From Methylomarinovum caldicuralii (GTDB lineage: Bacteria; Pseudomonadota; Gammaproteobacteria; Methylococcales; Methylothermaceae), in NCBI RefSeq assembly GCF_033126985.1, contig NZ_AP024714.1, positions 620,001-684,000 on the forward strand: a stretch of DNA of 64,000 nucleotides, in the 5' to 3' direction. The notes below the pieces were generated by a model, which was not told the origin of the DNA, did no database searches, and was given only the letters and a program-made list of their open reading frames with translations. Positions 52,742 to 60,909 of the stretch are shown here, in pieces. Position 1 is the stretch's first letter; each line of letters opens with the position of its first letter. The position numbers and the translations under genes were made by a program.

Positions 52742-53764
52742 TTAGGGATCAGTCTCGTCCAGACGCTCCATCAGATAGCACAGGCAGTCCTGACGGATGA
52801 CACGCGCGTCCAGGGTCAGCATCGACGGCATCACCCGCTGGCACTGGATCAGCCTACTGTCTTCCACCGCGAAATAGCGCCCCGTCACCTCCCGGCCTTC
52901 CTCGTCCACCACCTGCACCGGCATCCGCTCGGTGTGCACCTCGCCCCAGGCAACGCCGGGCGGCAGCTTGGTGAAGTTGAGGTGGTCCAGGTCGCCGCGC
53001 AGCACCAGATCGGCGCTCTCGTCGTGAAAACTGAAGCGGATGTCGTCGGGAATCCTGACCTGGGCCACGGTGTGGAACAGGTCGATGGCGCCGCGGCCGA
53101 TGGGTTTGTCGGGAACCTGGCGCAGATGCAGGCAGGTGTCGATGAAGTCGGCGGCATGGACCGCGCCGCGTTCCACCCCGGGCCTGCCGCATTCCAGGGT
53201 CACCGCCGGGCACAGTTCGGCGAAGGCCAGCGACTGCACCCCGCGGGGCCGCAGGAAATACACCACCAGGTGACCGAACAGCGCCGCCAGGTGGAGGAAC
53301 GGCCGCTCCAGTTTATTGACGCAGGCGTAGTGGGGATTGCGGCCGGTGTTGTTGTGGACGTCGATACTGGCGAACACCCGGCGCCGGCGCATGATCTCCC
53401 ACACCTGCCGCATCAGCCGCACCTCCGGGCAGTCAGGGTGGTCGGTTCCCGGCCAGACCCGGTTGTAGTCCGGCTGGCCATCGAGCCGCCGCATTCCCGC
53501 CGCCGCAGCGGCGACATTGCCGAAGAACACCGACAGGGAGCGCGGCAGCGGCGCAGCCCGGTATTTGCGCAGGAGGCGCTGAACCGCCTGCAGCCCGGTC
53601 ACCTCGTTGCCGTGCAACAGGACGGAAACGAACAGGGGGCGCGTCTCGCGGCCCGGCAGATGCAGCAGGGTGGGGCCCGGCAGCAGGGTGTGCAGGTCGC
53701 GGGCCTCGATGTCGAGCAGACCTTCGGGAACGCAGTCGATTTGATGCAGGGTCAGATCGGCCAT
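52742..53764 (-). CDS. AstE/AspA-like (succinylglutamate desuccinylase/aspartoacylase) hydrolase
   Basis: A 340-residue zinc hydrolase of the M14-related AstE/AspA family, which cleaves N-acyl or amide bonds of amino acids. LLHGNEVTG carries the HxxE zinc ligands, DVHNNTGRNPHYACVN the second histidine, and VTLECGRPG the catalytic glutamate. The C-terminal domain (about 240-340) is beta-rich. It begins within the end of the upstream glutamate-cysteine-ligase-like gene (13-base overlap), suggesting linked steps on a gamma-glutamyl or acyl-amino-acid compound. Confidence 0.83.
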   Translation of the reverse strand: MADLTLHQIDCVPEGLLDIEARDLHTLLPGPTLLHLPGRETRPLFVSVLLHGNEVTGLQAVQRLLRKYRAAPLPRSLSVFFGNVAAAAAGMRRLDGQPDYNRVWPGTDHPDCPEVRLMRQVWEIMRRRRVFASIDVHNNTGRNPHYACVNKLERPFLHLAALFGHLVVYFLRPRGVQSLAFAELCPAVTLECGRPGVERGAVHAADFIDTCLHLRQVPDKPIGRGAIDLFHTVAQVRIPDDIRFSFHDESADLVLRGDLDHLNFTKLPPGVAWGEVHTERMPVQVVDEEGREVTGRYFAVEDSRLIQCQRVMPSMLTLDARVIRQDCLCYLMERLDETDP

Positions 53765-55170
53765 GTATGGACAGGGTCTCCTTGGCGTTGATGATGAAGA
53801 TAGGCTGCCGTCAGAGCGGTGAAGTCCCGCCCGTGGGCGGCGGCGAAGCGGCGCTGCCACAGGGCGCCGTTCTGGTCGGCCAGCACCCGCTGGCGCACGA
53901 TGTCGAGATAGAATTCGCGGTCACGGCGGCATATCCCCAGCCGCTGCAGTCCCTCCCGCGCCCGCGGAATCAGCTCGTCACGCAGCAGTCTGGACAGGTG
54001 CCAGCGCTGGCCCCCGGTCCAGGTCACCCGCGTGTCCCAGCCGTGTTTGGCGGCGCGGTAGAAATTGTCCCGGGCGACGGCGAAGGGCAGGGGCTTTTCG
54101 TGGCTGAGGGACTCGGCCAGCCCGTAGTACAGCGCCGCGTTGGCGATCATGTCCACCAGGGTCGGGCCGGCGGGCAGCACCCGGTGCTCGATGCGGAAAT
54201 GGGGGGTGCCGTCGGCGTCGAACCCCACCAGCGGGCGGTTCCAGCGCCAGATGGTGCCGTTGTGCAGGCGCAGATGGGCCAGCTTCTCCGGCGGGGTGTC
54301 GAAGCAGATCGGCAGCAGCGGCGGAAAATGCCGCAGGTTCTCCTCGAACACCTCGCTCAGCTGGCGGCGGGCGTAGCCGCTGCCGAAGCCGACCCGGCGC
54401 AGGGGGCCGCGCACCGCCGCCCCGTAACCGCCCACTTCGATGGCTTGCTCGAACAGGGGGATGCGGGTTTCGGCCCACAGATCGCGGCCGAACAGGAACG
54501 GCGAATTGGCCCCGGCCGCCACCGTCGCCGCCGAGGCGACGATCGATGCGTTGTAAAGGGCCACCGCCCGCCCCCGGGGGGCCTGCAGATGAATCTGGAA
54601 CGAGGTGGCGGCTGACTCCAGCATGACGTCGTGATGCAGGCACTTGAGATGTTCGAGGCCGTGGATGTCCAGCTGCAGCGGCTGGCCGCCCCGCTGTTTC
54701 AGAATCTGCTCGTTGAGCGCCAGATAGCGGTTCAGCGGCGACAGGTTGGCCAGGCTGAGATCGGCCTGCCGCAGCGTGGGCAGAATGCCGATCATCAGCA
54801 GCGCCAGGTCGAGGCGGCGGGCGCAGGCATCGGCCCGGCGCCACAGCTGCGTCAGCTCGTGATGGAAGCGGCGCAAAGCGTCCTCACGCAACGGACGGGG
54901 CTGATTGTTGAGCTCGACGTTGAAGCGCGCCAGCTCCGCCGAGGCCAGGGGATCGGCCAGGGCCTTAAGATAGCGGACGTTGTCCGGCGCCGGGCGCAAC
55001 CGGCGGTCCACCAGCCAGGCCTCGATTTCGAAGCCGCCCACCGGCTCGCGTCCGGAAAGACGGTCTTCGTCCTCCAGCACCCGCAGCAGGCGGGTTTCTT
55101 CGGCGACCCGGCGGCGGAAGCACTCGAAATCCGCCGGCATGAAGCGGATACGTTCGATTTCCTGACCCAA
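53752..55170 (-). CDS. Glutamate-cysteine-ligase-like enzyme
   Basis: A 472-residue protein of the glutamate-cysteine ligase-like (GCS2-type) carboxylate-amine ligase group. The N-terminal FEIEAWLVDRRLRPAPDN and FNVELNNQP carry the acidic metal ligands typical of this fold, and SFQIHLQAP and IEHRVLPAGPTLVDMIANAALYYGL follow. It is not the classical GshA, so the acceptor substrate is unknown. I chose a TTG start at 55170 because homologs begin MGQEIxRxxF; the ATG at residue 12 would remove this segment. GGAG lies 10 bases upstream. Confidence 0.78.
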   Translation of the reverse strand: MGQEIERIRFMPADFECFRRRVAEETRLLRVLEDEDRLSGREPVGGFEIEAWLVDRRLRPAPDNVRYLKALADPLASAELARFNVELNNQPRPLREDALRRFHHELTQLWRRADACARRLDLALLMIGILPTLRQADLSLANLSPLNRYLALNEQILKQRGGQPLQLDIHGLEHLKCLHHDVMLESAATSFQIHLQAPRGRAVALYNASIVASAATVAAGANSPFLFGRDLWAETRIPLFEQAIEVGGYGAAVRGPLRRVGFGSGYARRQLSEVFEENLRHFPPLLPICFDTPPEKLAHLRLHNGTIWRWNRPLVGFDADGTPHFRIEHRVLPAGPTLVDMIANAALYYGLAESLSHEKPLPFAVARDNFYRAAKHGWDTRVTWTGGQRWHLSRLLRDELIPRAREGLQRLGICRRDREFYLDIVRQRVLADQNGALWQRRFAAAHGRDFTALTAAYLHHQRQGDPVHTWPI

Positions 55171-55195
55171 GTTGAGCGATCTCCTCGGCCGAAGG

Positions 55196-56032
55196 TTACA
55201 GGTTGAAGGCGTTCCACACCGGCTCGACGCCCGGCGGCAGCGGCTCCAGCCGCCCGAGATCGATCCAGGGAAAGGCCGGATCGTGGAAATCGGACCCCAC
55301 CGACCCGGCCAGACGGTAACGGCGGGCGTAATCGGCGCAGGTGGCGATCTGGTTGGGGGTGCTGTTGCCGTTGACCACCTCGATTCCCACCCCGCCGGCG
55401 GACTGGAACGCCGACAGAAAGCGCCGCAGCCAGCTGGCGGTGAGCTGATAGCGCAGCGGATGGGCCAGCACCGCGACGCCGCCGGCGGCGCGGATCCATT
55501 CCAGGGCCTCTTCCAGCCCGGCCCAGCGGGTGGCGACGTAACCGGGTTTGCCCCGCACCAGATAGCGGTCGAAGACCTCGGCCACCGAAGCGGCATAATC
55601 CCGGGCCACCAGAAAGCGGGCGAAGTGGGTGCGGGTGATCATGCCCTCACCGGCCATTTCCTCCACCGCCGCCAGACTGCCCTCGATGCCGTGTCTGGCC
55701 AGATTCTCGGCCATCGCCGCCGCCCGCTCGCGGCGGATCCGCTGCAGGCCGGCCAACCCCCGACACAGGGTTTCATTGGCGGGATCGACGCCCAGACCGA
55801 GAATGTGGAAGCAGCGCTTCTCCCAGGTGACGGAGATTTCCACCCCGGCGATCAGGCGGACACCGAGCACCTCGGCGGCGCGGCGGGCGCTCGCAATGCC
55901 GGCGACGCTGTCGTGGTCGGTAAGGGCCAGATGACGCACGCCGTTCTCCGCCGCCCGCCTCACCACCCGGGCCGGGGACAGGGCACCGTCGGAGGCACTG
56001 GAATGACAGTGGAGATCGAACGCCGAGGTCAT
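55196..56032 (-). CDS. PHP-domain phosphoesterase (YciV/RNase AM-like)
   Basis: A 278-residue PHP-domain enzyme. Metal-ligand motifs are DLHCHSSASDG (His8, His10, Asp15), LTDHDSVAG, GVEIS and HPLRY, ending with GSDFHDP. The arrangement with an inserted helical segment (about 95-165) matches the YciV group, which hydrolyses 5' phosphate-containing nucleotides or short RNA. It overlaps the ABC exporter gene by four bases and is 25 bases upstream of the ligase-like gene. Confidence 0.88.
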   Translation of the reverse strand: MTSAFDLHCHSSASDGALSPARVVRRAAENGVRHLALTDHDSVAGIASARRAAEVLGVRLIAGVEISVTWEKRCFHILGLGVDPANETLCRGLAGLQRIRRERAAAMAENLARHGIEGSLAAVEEMAGEGMITRTHFARFLVARDYAASVAEVFDRYLVRGKPGYVATRWAGLEEALEWIRAAGGVAVLAHPLRYQLTASWLRRFLSAFQSAGGVGIEVVNGNSTPNQIATCADYARRYRLAGSVGSDFHDPAFPWIDLGRLEPLPPGVEPVWNAFNL

Positions 56033-57852
56033 GGCAAGGCCTGCTGGCGTTTGCCGTACAGCCTGGCGTAAAGGCCGCCCTGGGCCAGGAGATCGGCATG
56101 GCCGCCCTGTTCGCAGATGCGGCCGTCCTCGAACACGTAGACCCGGTCGGCCTGTTTCACGGCGCTGAGGCGGTGGGCGACGATCACCGTGGTGCGGCGC
56201 GCCAGGAAGCGGGACAGCGCTTCGTGGAGGCGCTGCTCGGTTTCGGTGTCCAGCGCCGAGGTGGCCTCGTCGAAGATCACCACCTTGGGTTCGGCCAGGA
56301 TCATCCGGGCGATGGCGAGGCGCTGGCGCTGTCCTCCGGAAAGACGCATGCCGCTGCGGCCGATGACGGTGTCCAGGCCGGCGGGCAGGGCGGCGACGGT
56401 GTCGGCCAGCTGGGCGGTCTCCAGGGCCTGCCACAGGCGGCGGTCGTCCAGATCGCGGCCCAGGGTCAGGTTGGCGCGGATGGTGTCGTTGAACAGCACC
56501 GGCTGCTGCAGCACCGTGGCCACGTGTTCGCGCACCACTTCCATGCCGATGCGGGTGATGGGCTCGCCGTCGTAATAGACCATCCCCCGTGTCGGCGCGT
56601 AGAGGCCGATGAGCACCTGCACCAGGGTGGACTTGCCGCCGCCGCTGGCGCCCACCAGGGCGATCTTTTCACCCGCGCCGACGTCGAGGCTCACGCCCTT
56701 GAGGACTTCGTCCCCCCGGTCGTAGCGGAAGTGCAGATCCTCGACCCGGATGGACACCGTGGGCTTGCCGCGGAAGGGATTGACCTGATGCGGGTAACGC
56801 GGCTCCTGGCGCAACGCCAGCAGGCGGTTGATCCGCGCCAGCGCCGCCTGGGCGCTGTAGAAGGCGTACTGGATGCCGAGCAGTTCCTGCACCGGCCCCA
56901 TCATGAACCACAGGTAACCGAACACCGCCAGCATCTGGCCGATGCTGAGATCGGAGAACAGCACCATGGTCATGGCGGTGGCGCGGAACAGATCCACGCC
57001 GTGGAGGAAGACCACGAAGCTGAAGCGGTTGAGAGCGTCGCTCTTCCAGGCGTACTGGCCGGCGCGGTGGCGCACCTGGTCGGCGCGATCGCGCAGGCGC
57101 TCGAAGTAATAGCGCTCGCGGTTGCTGGCGCGGATCTGCTGGATGGCGTCCAGGGTTTCGGTCAGGGCCTGCTGGAACGCCTCCAGAGCGCCGTTTTCCT
57201 GCTTCTTGAGCTGCTTGACCCGTTTTCCCAGGGCGCGGGTGAAATAGATCACCAGGGGGTTGAGACAGAGGATGAACAGGGCCAGGGGCCAGTGGATCCA
57301 CAGCAGGATCGCCGCGGTGCCGACGATGGTGAGGGCGGCGATGAGGGAACGGCTGATGGTGGCGCCGAGAAACTGGTCCAGGGTGTCGACATCGGTGACC
57401 AGGTGGGTGACCACGGTGCCGCTGCCGAGGGACTCGTATTCCGCCATCGACACCCGTTCCAGGCGCTTGAGCAGATCGGTGCGCAGCCGGTAGGTGACGT
57501 CCTTGGAAATCTCGGTGAACTGGCGCGTCTGCCAGACGTTGAAGCCCAGGGCCGCCAGCCGCAGCAGGAACGACAGCACCAGCACCGCGCCGATGTACCA
57601 CAGAGCCCGGTCCCAGGGGAACGCCGCCGGCGGCGGCAGCCAGCGGTCGATGAAAGCGGTCACCGGTCCCGGATGTCCCAGCAGGACCTCGTCCACCAGG
57701 GTCGGGATCAGCAGCGGCACCGGCACCGCCGCCAGGGCCGCCAGCAGCGCCACCGCCTGGGCCAGGAGCAGCTTGCGCCGGTGACGCAGGCTCAGGCGGA
57801 TCAGGGTGCGCCAGTCGTAGCGGCGCGGCGGCAGGGCGGCGGTGCGGGACAT
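56029..57852 (-). CDS. ABC exporter, fused permease and ATPase
   Basis: A 607-residue half-transporter of the ABCB/MsbA type. Six transmembrane helices (about 30-320) precede the nucleotide-binding domain with Walker A GASGGGKSTLV, signature LSGGQRQRLAIARMIL, Walker B VVIFDEATSALD and H-loop VIVAHRLSAV. The ATG at 57852 was chosen over a TTG at 57861. It sits 6 bases after the Wzz-like gene, so glycan or lipid-linked substrate export is a reasonable guess; the substrate is unknown. It is not msbA by neighbourhood. Confidence 0.9.
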   Translation of the reverse strand: MSRTAALPPRRYDWRTLIRLSLRHRRKLLLAQAVALLAALAAVPVPLLIPTLVDEVLLGHPGPVTAFIDRWLPPPAAFPWDRALWYIGAVLVLSFLLRLAALGFNVWQTRQFTEISKDVTYRLRTDLLKRLERVSMAEYESLGSGTVVTHLVTDVDTLDQFLGATISRSLIAALTIVGTAAILLWIHWPLALFILCLNPLVIYFTRALGKRVKQLKKQENGALEAFQQALTETLDAIQQIRASNRERYYFERLRDRADQVRHRAGQYAWKSDALNRFSFVVFLHGVDLFRATAMTMVLFSDLSIGQMLAVFGYLWFMMGPVQELLGIQYAFYSAQAALARINRLLALRQEPRYPHQVNPFRGKPTVSIRVEDLHFRYDRGDEVLKGVSLDVGAGEKIALVGASGGGKSTLVQVLIGLYAPTRGMVYYDGEPITRIGMEVVREHVATVLQQPVLFNDTIRANLTLGRDLDDRRLWQALETAQLADTVAALPAGLDTVIGRSGMRLSGGQRQRLAIARMILAEPKVVIFDEATSALDTETEQRLHEALSRFLARRTTVIVAHRLSAVKQADRVYVFEDGRICEQGGHADLLAQGGLYARLYGKRQQALP

Positions 57853-57857
57853 GGGCT

Positions 57858-59804
57858 TCAAGGGCGCAGACAGGGATAAACCGGGTCGATCTGGTCCACG
57901 TCTTTGTCCGCCGCGATGGCGAGCGGCCGGTAACGGCTCAGTTCCTCCAGTGGCAGGGGACCGACGAGGGCTTCCAGCTGAGTCAGTTTCAATCCCTGGC
58001 GAAGCAGATGGACGATGTAAGCATGACGAAGCGCTTCCGGGGTTACGCTTTCCGGATCTTCCAGTCCGGCTTCGACCGCGGCCAGATAGAGCGATTTGCG
58101 GACCGCTTCCGGATCGCCGGGCACCAGGGGCGTCCCCCCGCTGGCCGCCAGCCAGGTCTTCAACCGCGGAGCCAGGGGCAGGGAGCGCCGGTGCGGGGGC
58201 GGGACCAGCAGACGCGCATGGGCCAGATCCACATCCGTGGTTTCCAGGCGGGTCAGCTCTTCCGGGGTCAGGCCGCTAAGAAGCAGGGCGATGGTCTGGC
58301 GGGTCTTCAGGTCGGCGTGGTCGATCAGGCGTTGCAGCGTCCCGGTATCGAGCTCCTGCGGCTGGGAAGGCAGCCTTTCCGGCACCGTTTCCGTCCTCAG
58401 AGCTTCGGCCGGCGGCGGTCGGGAAAACAGGGGAGCCTGACCGGGATCGGCATAAACGTGCACCCCCGCGAGGGTCAGCCGGGTGTCCGGCAGCCGTGCC
58501 TCCCGCCGGGTCAGGAATTCCAGCAGCCAGACCGCCACCAGTCCCAGCCCGAAGGCGAGCAGCACCACCACCCCGGCATCACGCCAGTAATGGGGCCGGA
58601 TGGGGCTTTCCGGCGTGTAGGCCTTTTCGACCACCTCCACCTGGGGATACTGTTCCAGCTGCTTGACCTCCAGCTGGGTGATGCGGGCCTGGAGCTCGCG
58701 CTGCTGTTCTTCCAGCTGTTCCAGGTCCTTCACCAGCGACTCGTGCTCGGCGAAGCGGGTGCTGAATTCCTGCGCCTGGCGTTTGTGCGCCTCCAGCTGG
58801 CGCCGGGTTTCTTCCACCGTCTGGAGGGCGGCGGCGTAATCCTGCTGCGCCTGGGCCAGCACCACCCGGCGCCCCCGTTCCACCAGCGCCGCGATCTTGG
58901 CCTCCACCTCCCGCAGCTGCTGCGGCACCTTGCGGTAGGCAGGATTGAGGCGGATGTACTGGGGGGTGAAACGCTGCTTCATGGCGGTCAACTTTTCCCG
59001 CAGCGCCTGGGCCCGCTGCTCCAGCACCGCCAGCACCTGCTGGTCTTCCTCGGGGACCACGGGCTTGCCGGCGGCGACCGCCGCTTTTACCGCATCCAGC
59101 CGCGACCTGGCCTCGATCACCGCCTCGTTGGCCTTGTTGAGGGCCTCGGTCAGACCGTTGAGACGGGCGAGCACGGTGTTTTCCCCGCGCTCCAGGGAAG
59201 CGATGTCGTAACGCTGACGGAAATCCTCCAGGGCCTTGCGGCGGGCGGCGATTTTGCCCTGAAGCGCCGCCAGCCGTTCGCGCAGCGCCCGCAGGGTGGC
59301 GCCGGTGGAAGCCTCGATCTCCCGCGCCCGCGCCTCCCGGTAGACTTCGACCCAGGTGTTGACCAGGGGGGCGAGCAGGTCGCGGTCCGGGCCTTCGGCG
59401 ATCAGGCGCACCAGATTGGTGTCGGGCACCGGTTCCACCCGCAGCATCTCCCTGACCGCCGCCGGGGTCAGGCCCGGCGGCAGGCGGCCATCCCATTCCA
59501 GCCGTTTGAGGGTTTCCTCCAGCAGCGGCTGGCCGGTAAGCAGGACCCGCTGGATGGCGATGTGCTGGGGATCGACGACGATCTCGTTGGCATCGGCCGC
59601 CGGCGGCGGAGTGGTCAGCAGGGTGGCGCCGGCCTGATAGATCGCCGGGCGCAGAAACACGACCAGCCAGCCCAGCAACAGGGTCGCGGCGGCGACGGCG
59701 GTGAACACCTGGACCCGGCGCTGCCGGTACCAGGGCAGAGGCGGGACGCTGGCGGGCGGGGCCGGTTCCGGCCCGGAAATTCGTTCCACGGGGATCTGTG
59801 CCAT
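57858..59804 (-). CDS. Wzz/GumC-type polysaccharide co-polymerase fused to a degenerate tyrosine-recombinase-fold domain
   Basis: A 648-residue inner-membrane protein. Wzz architecture: TM1 at about 33-52, periplasmic Wzz domain and long coiled coil (about 55-400), a proline-rich IRPHYW motif just before TM2 (about 410-430), then a cytoplasmic tail. Residues about 488-628 align by eye with tyrosine recombinases: LLLSGLTPEELTRLETTDVDL matches box I (TGLR-xSEL-xxLxxxDIDL), and VTPEALRHAYIVHLLRQG matches box II. Catalytic residues are largely lost: the box I Arg is Thr513, the HxxR His is Glu590 (Arg593 kept), and the GH His is Pro616; Tyr625 may be a relic nucleophile. No tyrosine-kinase domain is present. 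The domain is probably a binding module rather than an enzyme. Confidence 0.75.
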   Translation of the reverse strand: MAQIPVERISGPEPAPPASVPPLPWYRQRRVQVFTAVAAATLLLGWLVVFLRPAIYQAGATLLTTPPPAADANEIVVDPQHIAIQRVLLTGQPLLEETLKRLEWDGRLPPGLTPAAVREMLRVEPVPDTNLVRLIAEGPDRDLLAPLVNTWVEVYREARAREIEASTGATLRALRERLAALQGKIAARRKALEDFRQRYDIASLERGENTVLARLNGLTEALNKANEAVIEARSRLDAVKAAVAAGKPVVPEEDQQVLAVLEQRAQALREKLTAMKQRFTPQYIRLNPAYRKVPQQLREVEAKIAALVERGRRVVLAQAQQDYAAALQTVEETRRQLEAHKRQAQEFSTRFAEHESLVKDLEQLEEQQRELQARITQLEVKQLEQYPQVEVVEKAYTPESPIRPHYWRDAGVVVLLAFGLGLVAVWLLEFLTRREARLPDTRLTLAGVHVYADPGQAPLFSRPPPAEALRTETVPERLPSQPQELDTGTLQRLIDHADLKTRQTIALLLSGLTPEELTRLETTDVDLAHARLLVPPPHRRSLPLAPRLKTWLAASGGTPLVPGDPEAVRKSLYLAAVEAGLEDPESVTPEALRHAYIVHLLRQGLKLTQLEALVGPLPLEELSRYRPLAIAADKDVDQIDPVYPCLRP

Positions 59805-59829
59805 CGTCTCACCTCGTTCGGCTGATGAT

Positions 59830-60909
59830 CTAGGGTAACAGGGCCAACAGGTGGTGCAGGCGCGCCTCCAGGGCCTTGGCCGAGGCCGCCCGCACTGTGG
59901 CGTGACCGACCTTGCGCCCCGGGCGCTCGGCCTTGCCATAGAAATGGCAGTGGACACCCGGTTGCGCCAGCACGTCGGCCAGCGCCGGCAGCACGCCGAT
60001 GAAATTCACTATCGCCGCATGTCCCACCGGCTCGGTGCCGCCCAAGGGCAGGTCGAGGATGGCGCGCAGGTGGTTTTCGAACTGGCTGGTTTCCGCCCCC
60101 TCGATGGTCCAGTGACCGGAGTTGTGCACCCTGGGCGCCATCTCGTTGGCCAGCAGGCGGCCGTTCACCTCGAACAGCTCCAGAGCTAAGACCCCGACAT
60201 AATCGAGACGTTCAAGCAGGCAGCGGGCATATTCCTGTGCCTGCACCGCGGCGGGATCGCCCGGGCGGCAGCGGGCGAGATGAAGAATGCCGTTCTTGTG
60301 GAGGTTCTCGCTGAGGGGATAGAAGGCTGTCTCGCCGCTGGCGCGGCGCACGGCGATGACCGAAACCTCGCGGTCGAAGGGAATGAAGCCCTCGCCGATC
60401 AGCGGCCGGCCTGCCAGCTCGGCCCAGGCGGCATCCATGTCGGCGGCGGTGCGGATCAGAAACTGCCCCTTGCCGTCGTAGCCGAAACGGCGGGTCTTGA
60501 CCAGGAACGGCCAGCCCAGCTGCTTGGGCGCCTCCTCCAGATTCTCCCGGCTGTCGATGGCGACGAAGGGCGGGGTGGGAATGTCGAGGCTGCGAAACAG
60601 CGATTTTTCCCGCAGGCGGTCGCGGCTGGCTTCCAGAGCCGCCAGCGGTGGATAGATGCGGGTGCGGTCCTGCAGCCTGCTCAGCCCTTCCAGGGACACG
60701 TTCTCAAACTCGTAGGTGATGACTTGGCAGGTGTCGGCCAGCCGCGCCAGCGCCTCCGGATCGTCATAGGGGGCGACCAGGTGTTCGGCCAGGGGGCCGG
60801 CGCAGGCATCCGGGGCCGGGTCGAGGACGGCGAAATCCAGCCCCAGGGGGTAACCGGCTAGAATCAGCATCCGCGCCAGCTGGCCGCCGCCGATGATGCC
60901 GATCTTCAT
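59830..60909 (-). CDS. purK: N5-carboxyaminoimidazole ribonucleotide synthase
   Basis: ATP-grasp enzyme of purine synthesis that carboxylates AIR with bicarbonate. The 359-residue protein starts [23 protein letters not shown], contains ITYEFENV and the ATP-grasp blocks [19 protein letters not shown] and [28 protein letters not shown]. It overlaps purE by four bases. Confidence 0.96.

Follow-up and report, generated by a model that had tools for sequence, protein, structure and literature searches.

Polysaccharide co-polymerases (PCPs) place their C-terminal module on the cytoplasmic side of the membrane. Here we describe a gene in a 64,000-nucleotide stretch of the Methylomarinovum caldicuralii genome (NZ_AP024714.1, positions 620,001 to 684,000; hereafter the window), whose product is an inner-membrane PCP of the Wzz/GumC type with a tail of the tyrosine-recombinase (YR) fold. 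Related PCPs carry a kinase or nothing at the position of this tail. The PCP framework itself is known, and the new element is the cytoplasmic module. PCP function is thought to rest on kinase-driven assembly and disassembly (PMC12004946).

Two described systems resemble the fusion in different respects. In Myxococcus xanthus, the pseudokinase EcpK, reported with EpsV, is proposed to scaffold a PCP through contacts alone (PMC12004946). There, too, a dead enzyme fold would serve a PCP by contact, but EcpK is a separate protein of kinase fold, whereas the module described here is attached and of recombinase fold. MrpR is a YR fold that has lost recombination, together with a similar set of residues, and that acts as a repressor (PMC10516654). 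MrpR, YopR and SroF, all degenerate YR-fold phage repressors, share with the tail an exapted YR fold that lost Arg-I and His and kept Tyr; they are, however, soluble, bind DNA and have both a core-binding domain and the Lys, whereas the fusion carries its YR fold as the tail of a membrane PCP. On these comparisons, EcpK would come closest in proposed function, and MrpR is the closest example of a YR fold put to new use. We found no title reporting a PCP/YR-tail fusion among the open-access papers searched, most subscription papers lying outside that scope. The fusion was also rare in the sampled genomes, so that, as far as tested, the architecture is as unusual as a preliminary description, made from the sequence alone, had supposed.

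A co-polymerase body with a recombinase-fold tail

The gene lies exactly where the preliminary description had placed it and runs on the minus strand. Its ATG is preceded by GAGGTGA (upstream of position 59804), and an ortholog with 95% identity is present in a further genome (G009). The best family for the body (residues 1-433) was TIGR03007 (XrtA chain length determinant; E = 4e-16), with a score of 58.3 bits that missed the curated cut-off of 278.85. A family profile matched the structures of Wzc (2e-15) and, over the body only, PslE (1e-9). Foldseek with the full-length model, whose domain placement is unsure (pLDDT 83.2, pTM 0.41), found Wzc, KpsE and WzzE. Two membrane helices flank a large helical periplasmic domain, an arrangement shared, along with a cytoplasmic C-terminal module, with Wzc-type PCP-2a proteins. 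The fusion differs from these in the YR fold of its cytoplasmic module. Walker A ([AG]xxxxGK[ST]) is absent from the whole protein, which therefore has no kinase, and the Tyr-rich end is also absent, with a single Tyr among the last 20 residues; since both are missing, we rejected a PCP-2a with tyrosine kinase. From established PCP topology, the tail would face the cytoplasm.

Residues 480-648 form a YR catalytic domain fold. PF00589 matched the tail alone with E = 1.8e-5 and 25.1 bits, just missing its curated cut-off of 27.1, and phmmer aligned the tail with XerD (1a0p) at 3.4e-4. A profile built from 42 tails matched archaeal Xer-like 4a8e (2.8e-13), XerA 5hxy (7e-13), XerD (1e-10) and also IntI4 among PDB sequences. 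PF00589 was the sole Pfam family listed for these tails, with 34 of the 42 matching at E ≤ 0.01 and eight unmatched. The AlphaFold2 model of the tail reached a pLDDT of 93.1 and a pTM of 0.88, and its best Foldseek match was XerA (E = 1.9e-7, TM(query) 0.71; best 50 of 107 matches considered). VIA-align superposed the model on XerA with Z 15.8 and an rmsd of 2.4 across 145 residues, and gave lower Z values for the degenerate YR folds SroF (12.6), YopR (11.6) and MrpR (11.3). A chance or false profile match was rejected on the 42-tail profile, the confident model and the XerA superposition. The fold proposed earlier from the sequence thus held in both structure prediction and profile searches. 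An N-terminal core-binding domain is absent; the tail is instead preceded by a disordered linker and the second membrane helix (TM2).

The final 15-20 residues lie outside most structural alignments and hold a family motif that closes in a Pro-rich YP/HP stretch. This conserved Pro-rich end past the YR fold (residues 626-648) is confidently modelled and could pack against the former active site or a neighbouring subunit. PslE of Pseudomonas (662-670 aa in PDB) was not among the matches of the 42-tail profile to PDB at E ≤ 1; its C-terminal part may hold a related tail.

By its residues, the tail is a catalytically dead pseudo-recombinase and would perform no recombination. Alignment with the genome's own recombinases placed Thr513 at Arg-I, Glu590 at the box II His and Pro616 at the GH His, bearing out the three substitutions, and with them the inactive domain, that had been read from the sequence. 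The window protein keeps three of the seven catalytic positions (the acidic Glu, Arg-II and Tyr), having lost Arg-I, Lys and both His. Among 56 distinct tails, Arg-I is kept in 0, the acidic residue in 56, the hairpin Lys in 0 (its column sits in a loosely aligned hairpin), the box II His in 1, Arg-II in 56, the GH His in 1 and Tyr in 54. Because the scan that added 41 loci required an RHTY pattern, Arg-II is fixed by construction there; in the 22 rows from outside that scan, the same seven positions, in order, are kept in 0, 22, 0, 0, 22, 0 and 21. A Tyr and a Gln on the Arg-II helix are conserved specifically in this family, in columns biased by the search pattern. Over their last 170 residues, 42 tails averaged a net charge of -7.0 (range -12 to 0), compared with +4, +4, +15 and +14 for real recombinases of the same genome (four of the six further PF00589 genes that pass the cut-off there). 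The tail therefore shares with XerA, XerC and XerD the catalytic-domain fold and a sequence relation, and differs from them in being acidic, in lacking a core-binding domain and in the loss of Arg-I and Lys from all tails and of each His from 55 of 56.

Distribution, selection and exosortase genes

A scan of named genomes returned 51 stretches, 41 of them relatives of the fusion, and 40 of these 41 sit in open frames of 652-989 aa, L044 being broken. A separate scan of named genomes with the single protein as query returned 29 stretches and no relative. The fusion is present in Methylococcales, Chromatiaceae, an Ectothiorhodospiraceae metagenome-assembled genome (MAG), Nitrosomonas marina, the Alteromonadaceae Paraglaciecola and Aliiglaciecola, Accumulibacter, Rubrivivax and gammaproteobacterial MAGs, and hence in several bacterial groups beyond Methylococcales, the spread that the preliminary description had left to be traced. 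In the close-relative set, 20 of 61 genomes hold the full fusion, and in one more it is interrupted by a contig end. Even samples yielded it rarely, with four fused genomes among 274 of the class and three among 398 of the phylum (E ≤ 1e-40, own genome counted).

Four genomes of one genus in the order (G029, G038, G041 and G059; loci L024-L027, L109 and L110) encode an orthologous PCP that stops at roughly 485 aa and has no tail. When the PCP portion was placed in a quickly built tree, in which long branches call for caution, the tail-less rows nested within fused rows (SH-aLRT 90 and 94, neither starred). Nitrosomonas marina (L048, L050) nested within Methylococcales rows. These placements suggest that one genus shed the tail but retained the PCP, and that the fusion was transferred between methane and ammonia oxidisers. 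We found no separate tail gene in the four tail-less genomes: their best tail-profile matches were 1.4e-12 or weaker and fell in recombinase-length frames, whereas real tails score 1e-55 to 1e-64 with the same profile. We accordingly rejected the idea that the tail persists as a separate gene in this genus.

The fusion evolves under purifying selection. Tail dN/dS was 0.06-0.25 in all ten close pairs, by which a pseudogene or decaying relic was rejected for the pairs tested, L044 alone being a broken copy. As a separate observation, recombinase box II is matched almost equally well at five places on contig G060:C1, in 195-aa frames that each contain one in-frame TAA; perhaps these are a repeated element.

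Like the kinase-less PCPs of the TIGR03007 (XrtA-system), EpsF and GumC-like kinds, the fusion occurs with exosortase genes: 38 of 41 fusion genomes have exosortase-family matches (TIGR03109, E ≤ 0.001), 28 of them over the XrtA cut-off, and the class sample has such matches in 84 of 274 genomes, 51 over the cut-off. The four fused genomes in the class sample were removed for the statistical test. Among close relatives, matches were found in 19 of 20 fused versus 19 of 41 other genomes (Fisher 2e-4), and by genus in 10 of 10 fused versus 8 of 14 others (0.024), with relatedness uncontrolled in both comparisons. The four tail-less genomes also have exosortase matches, so the link, if real, attaches to the PCP and not to the tail; for this reason, and because phylogeny is uncontrolled, we rejected the association as evidence for the tail itself. 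The fusion differs from these PCPs in its score, far under their cut-off, and in its position away from the XrtA gene. The window's genome holds two other PCP-like genes, one of which, of 522 aa, lies about 9 kb from the XrtA gene.

Possible roles of the tail

We favour, with moderate confidence, the explanation that a domesticated, non-catalytic YR domain replaces the PCP kinase module and works by protein-protein contacts. The tail sits where Wzc-type PCPs carry their tyrosine-kinase module, and it has given up the catalytic residues of real recombinases along with their basic character. Below the membrane, it may help PCP subunits to assemble or dock a cytoplasmic or membrane partner, and such contacts would then tune chain growth or export. 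If true, a dead-recombinase module would solve the PCP control problem in a way of its own, and the fusion would provide a bacterial example of a recombinase recruited into a membrane machine; it seems that an old DNA enzyme was redeployed for another job and kept under selection in several bacterial groups.

Several observations weigh against a contact role. The tail is not indispensable, since four genomes of one genus hold a PCP without it, and its dN/dS exceeds that of the body in nine of ten pairs. A scan of 20 neighbour representatives (SNF2 helicase, glycosyltransferase 2, URO-D, UvrD, DTW, thiG, hemerythrin and others) revealed no general operon partner among the neighbours of fused loci. 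Net charge is a coarse indicator; as MrpR shows, a YR fold may degenerate and still bind DNA; and conservation of the acidic residue, Arg-II and Tyr might reflect a retained ligand site instead of a structural need.

This last point is developed in a proposal that we consider unlikely, namely that the old active-site pocket binds a small phosphorylated ligand, or the phosphotyrosine of a partner kinase, the tail acting as a sensor that gates the co-polymerase. The near-invariance of the acidic residue, Arg-II and Tyr speaks for it, as do the family-specific Tyr and Gln, with the bias noted above. However, no ligand is known, the usual phosphate contacts (Arg-I and both His) are lost, and folding could explain conservation at the same positions: the Tyr-to-Phe change in MrpR cuts stability by about 6 C (PMC10516654), so a kept Tyr in the tails can be structural. 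A broader version would make the fusion a third way to run a PCP, in which a pseudo-recombinase replaces the kinase and its repurposed pocket reads a phospho-ligand or phosphotyrosine, gating assembly and chain growth; we regard this, too, as doubtful. We consider retained DNA binding by the tail quite unlikely; the protein would then tether DNA to the membrane or act as a membrane-bound regulator in the manner of MrpR and SroF. The fold is common to these DNA-binding degenerate relatives, and MrpR lost a similar residue set, but the acidic tail argues against such a role. MrpR, as described in its source, retains a core-binding domain, the Lys and a positive groove (PMC10516654); in the tail a linker takes the place of the first, the Lys is lost from every distinct tail, and net charge, which stands in for the groove in this comparison with published MrpR traits, is negative.

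A tail that is only a passenger from gene fusion, tethering or stabilising the protein, would fit its loss from one genus in which the PCP stayed and the somewhat weaker constraint on tail than on body. Its retention across wide divergence, its invariant residues and the low dN/dS in every pair make this very unlikely. Least probable of all, in our judgement, is a tail that specifically serves the MsbA-like ABC exporter encoded directly downstream. The two genes nearly overlap in the window, and the preliminary description had linked them. Among 54 fused loci (41 from the named-genome scan, 12 from a further search and the window), a co-directional exporter with at least 60% identity to that of the window adjoins ten: all seven examined in the window's genus/family group and three others of the same order (L033, L098 and L099). 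The other 44 show no such neighbour, some of them ending too early to reveal one. The exporter link thus stands within the window's group and these three loci and is not seen elsewhere; it is local only.

Gene neighbourhood

Features of the fusion gene and its immediate neighbours are collected in Table 1.

Table 1 Coordinates of the fusion gene, its domains and adjoining genes in the window
Feature	Coordinates	Strand	Basis or remarks
PCP/pseudo-recombinase fusion gene	57858..59804	minus	648 aa plus stop; ATG 59804, stop 57860-57858
First membrane helix (TM1), about residues 31-51	59652..59714	minus	hydropathy; helix 25-51 in full-length model
Periplasmic PCP domain with long coiled coil, residues 52-408	58581..59651	minus	TIGR03007, Wzc/PslE profile matches, Foldseek
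TM2, about residues 409-432	58509..58580	minus	hydropathy; helix 406-432 in full-length model
Linker, residues 433-479, predicted disordered	58368..58508	minus	pLDDT <50 at 434-479
YR-fold tail without catalytic set, residues 480-648	57861..58367	minus	profiles, model, alignments
MsbA-like ABC exporter, directly downstream of fusion	56029..57861	minus	PF00005/PF00664
Upstream ORF	59830..60909	minus	neighbour order conserved in six other loci of the window's group

A plus-strand ORF at 58008-59825 (605 aa) is a shadow of the minus-strand fusion gene and was rejected as spurious. The best NCBIfam match of the ABC exporter was TIGR02203 (E = 4.5e-107), yet below its cut-off. An in-frame ATG at 57852 would start the exporter 6 bases past the fusion stop, and a TTG at 57861 would make it overlap the fusion. 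On the other side, 25 bases separate the upstream ORF from the fusion ATG; by eye, we take this ORF to be PurK-like and the one beyond it to be PurE-like. Adjoining the exporter is a PHP-domain gene (55196-56032, minus) that matched NF041577 (3',5'-nucleoside bisphosphate phosphatase) at E = 1e-106, under the cut-off. A further minus-strand ORF at 53752-55218 resembled glutamate-cysteine ligase only weakly (E = 3.7e-6), and its order is conserved in the window's group.
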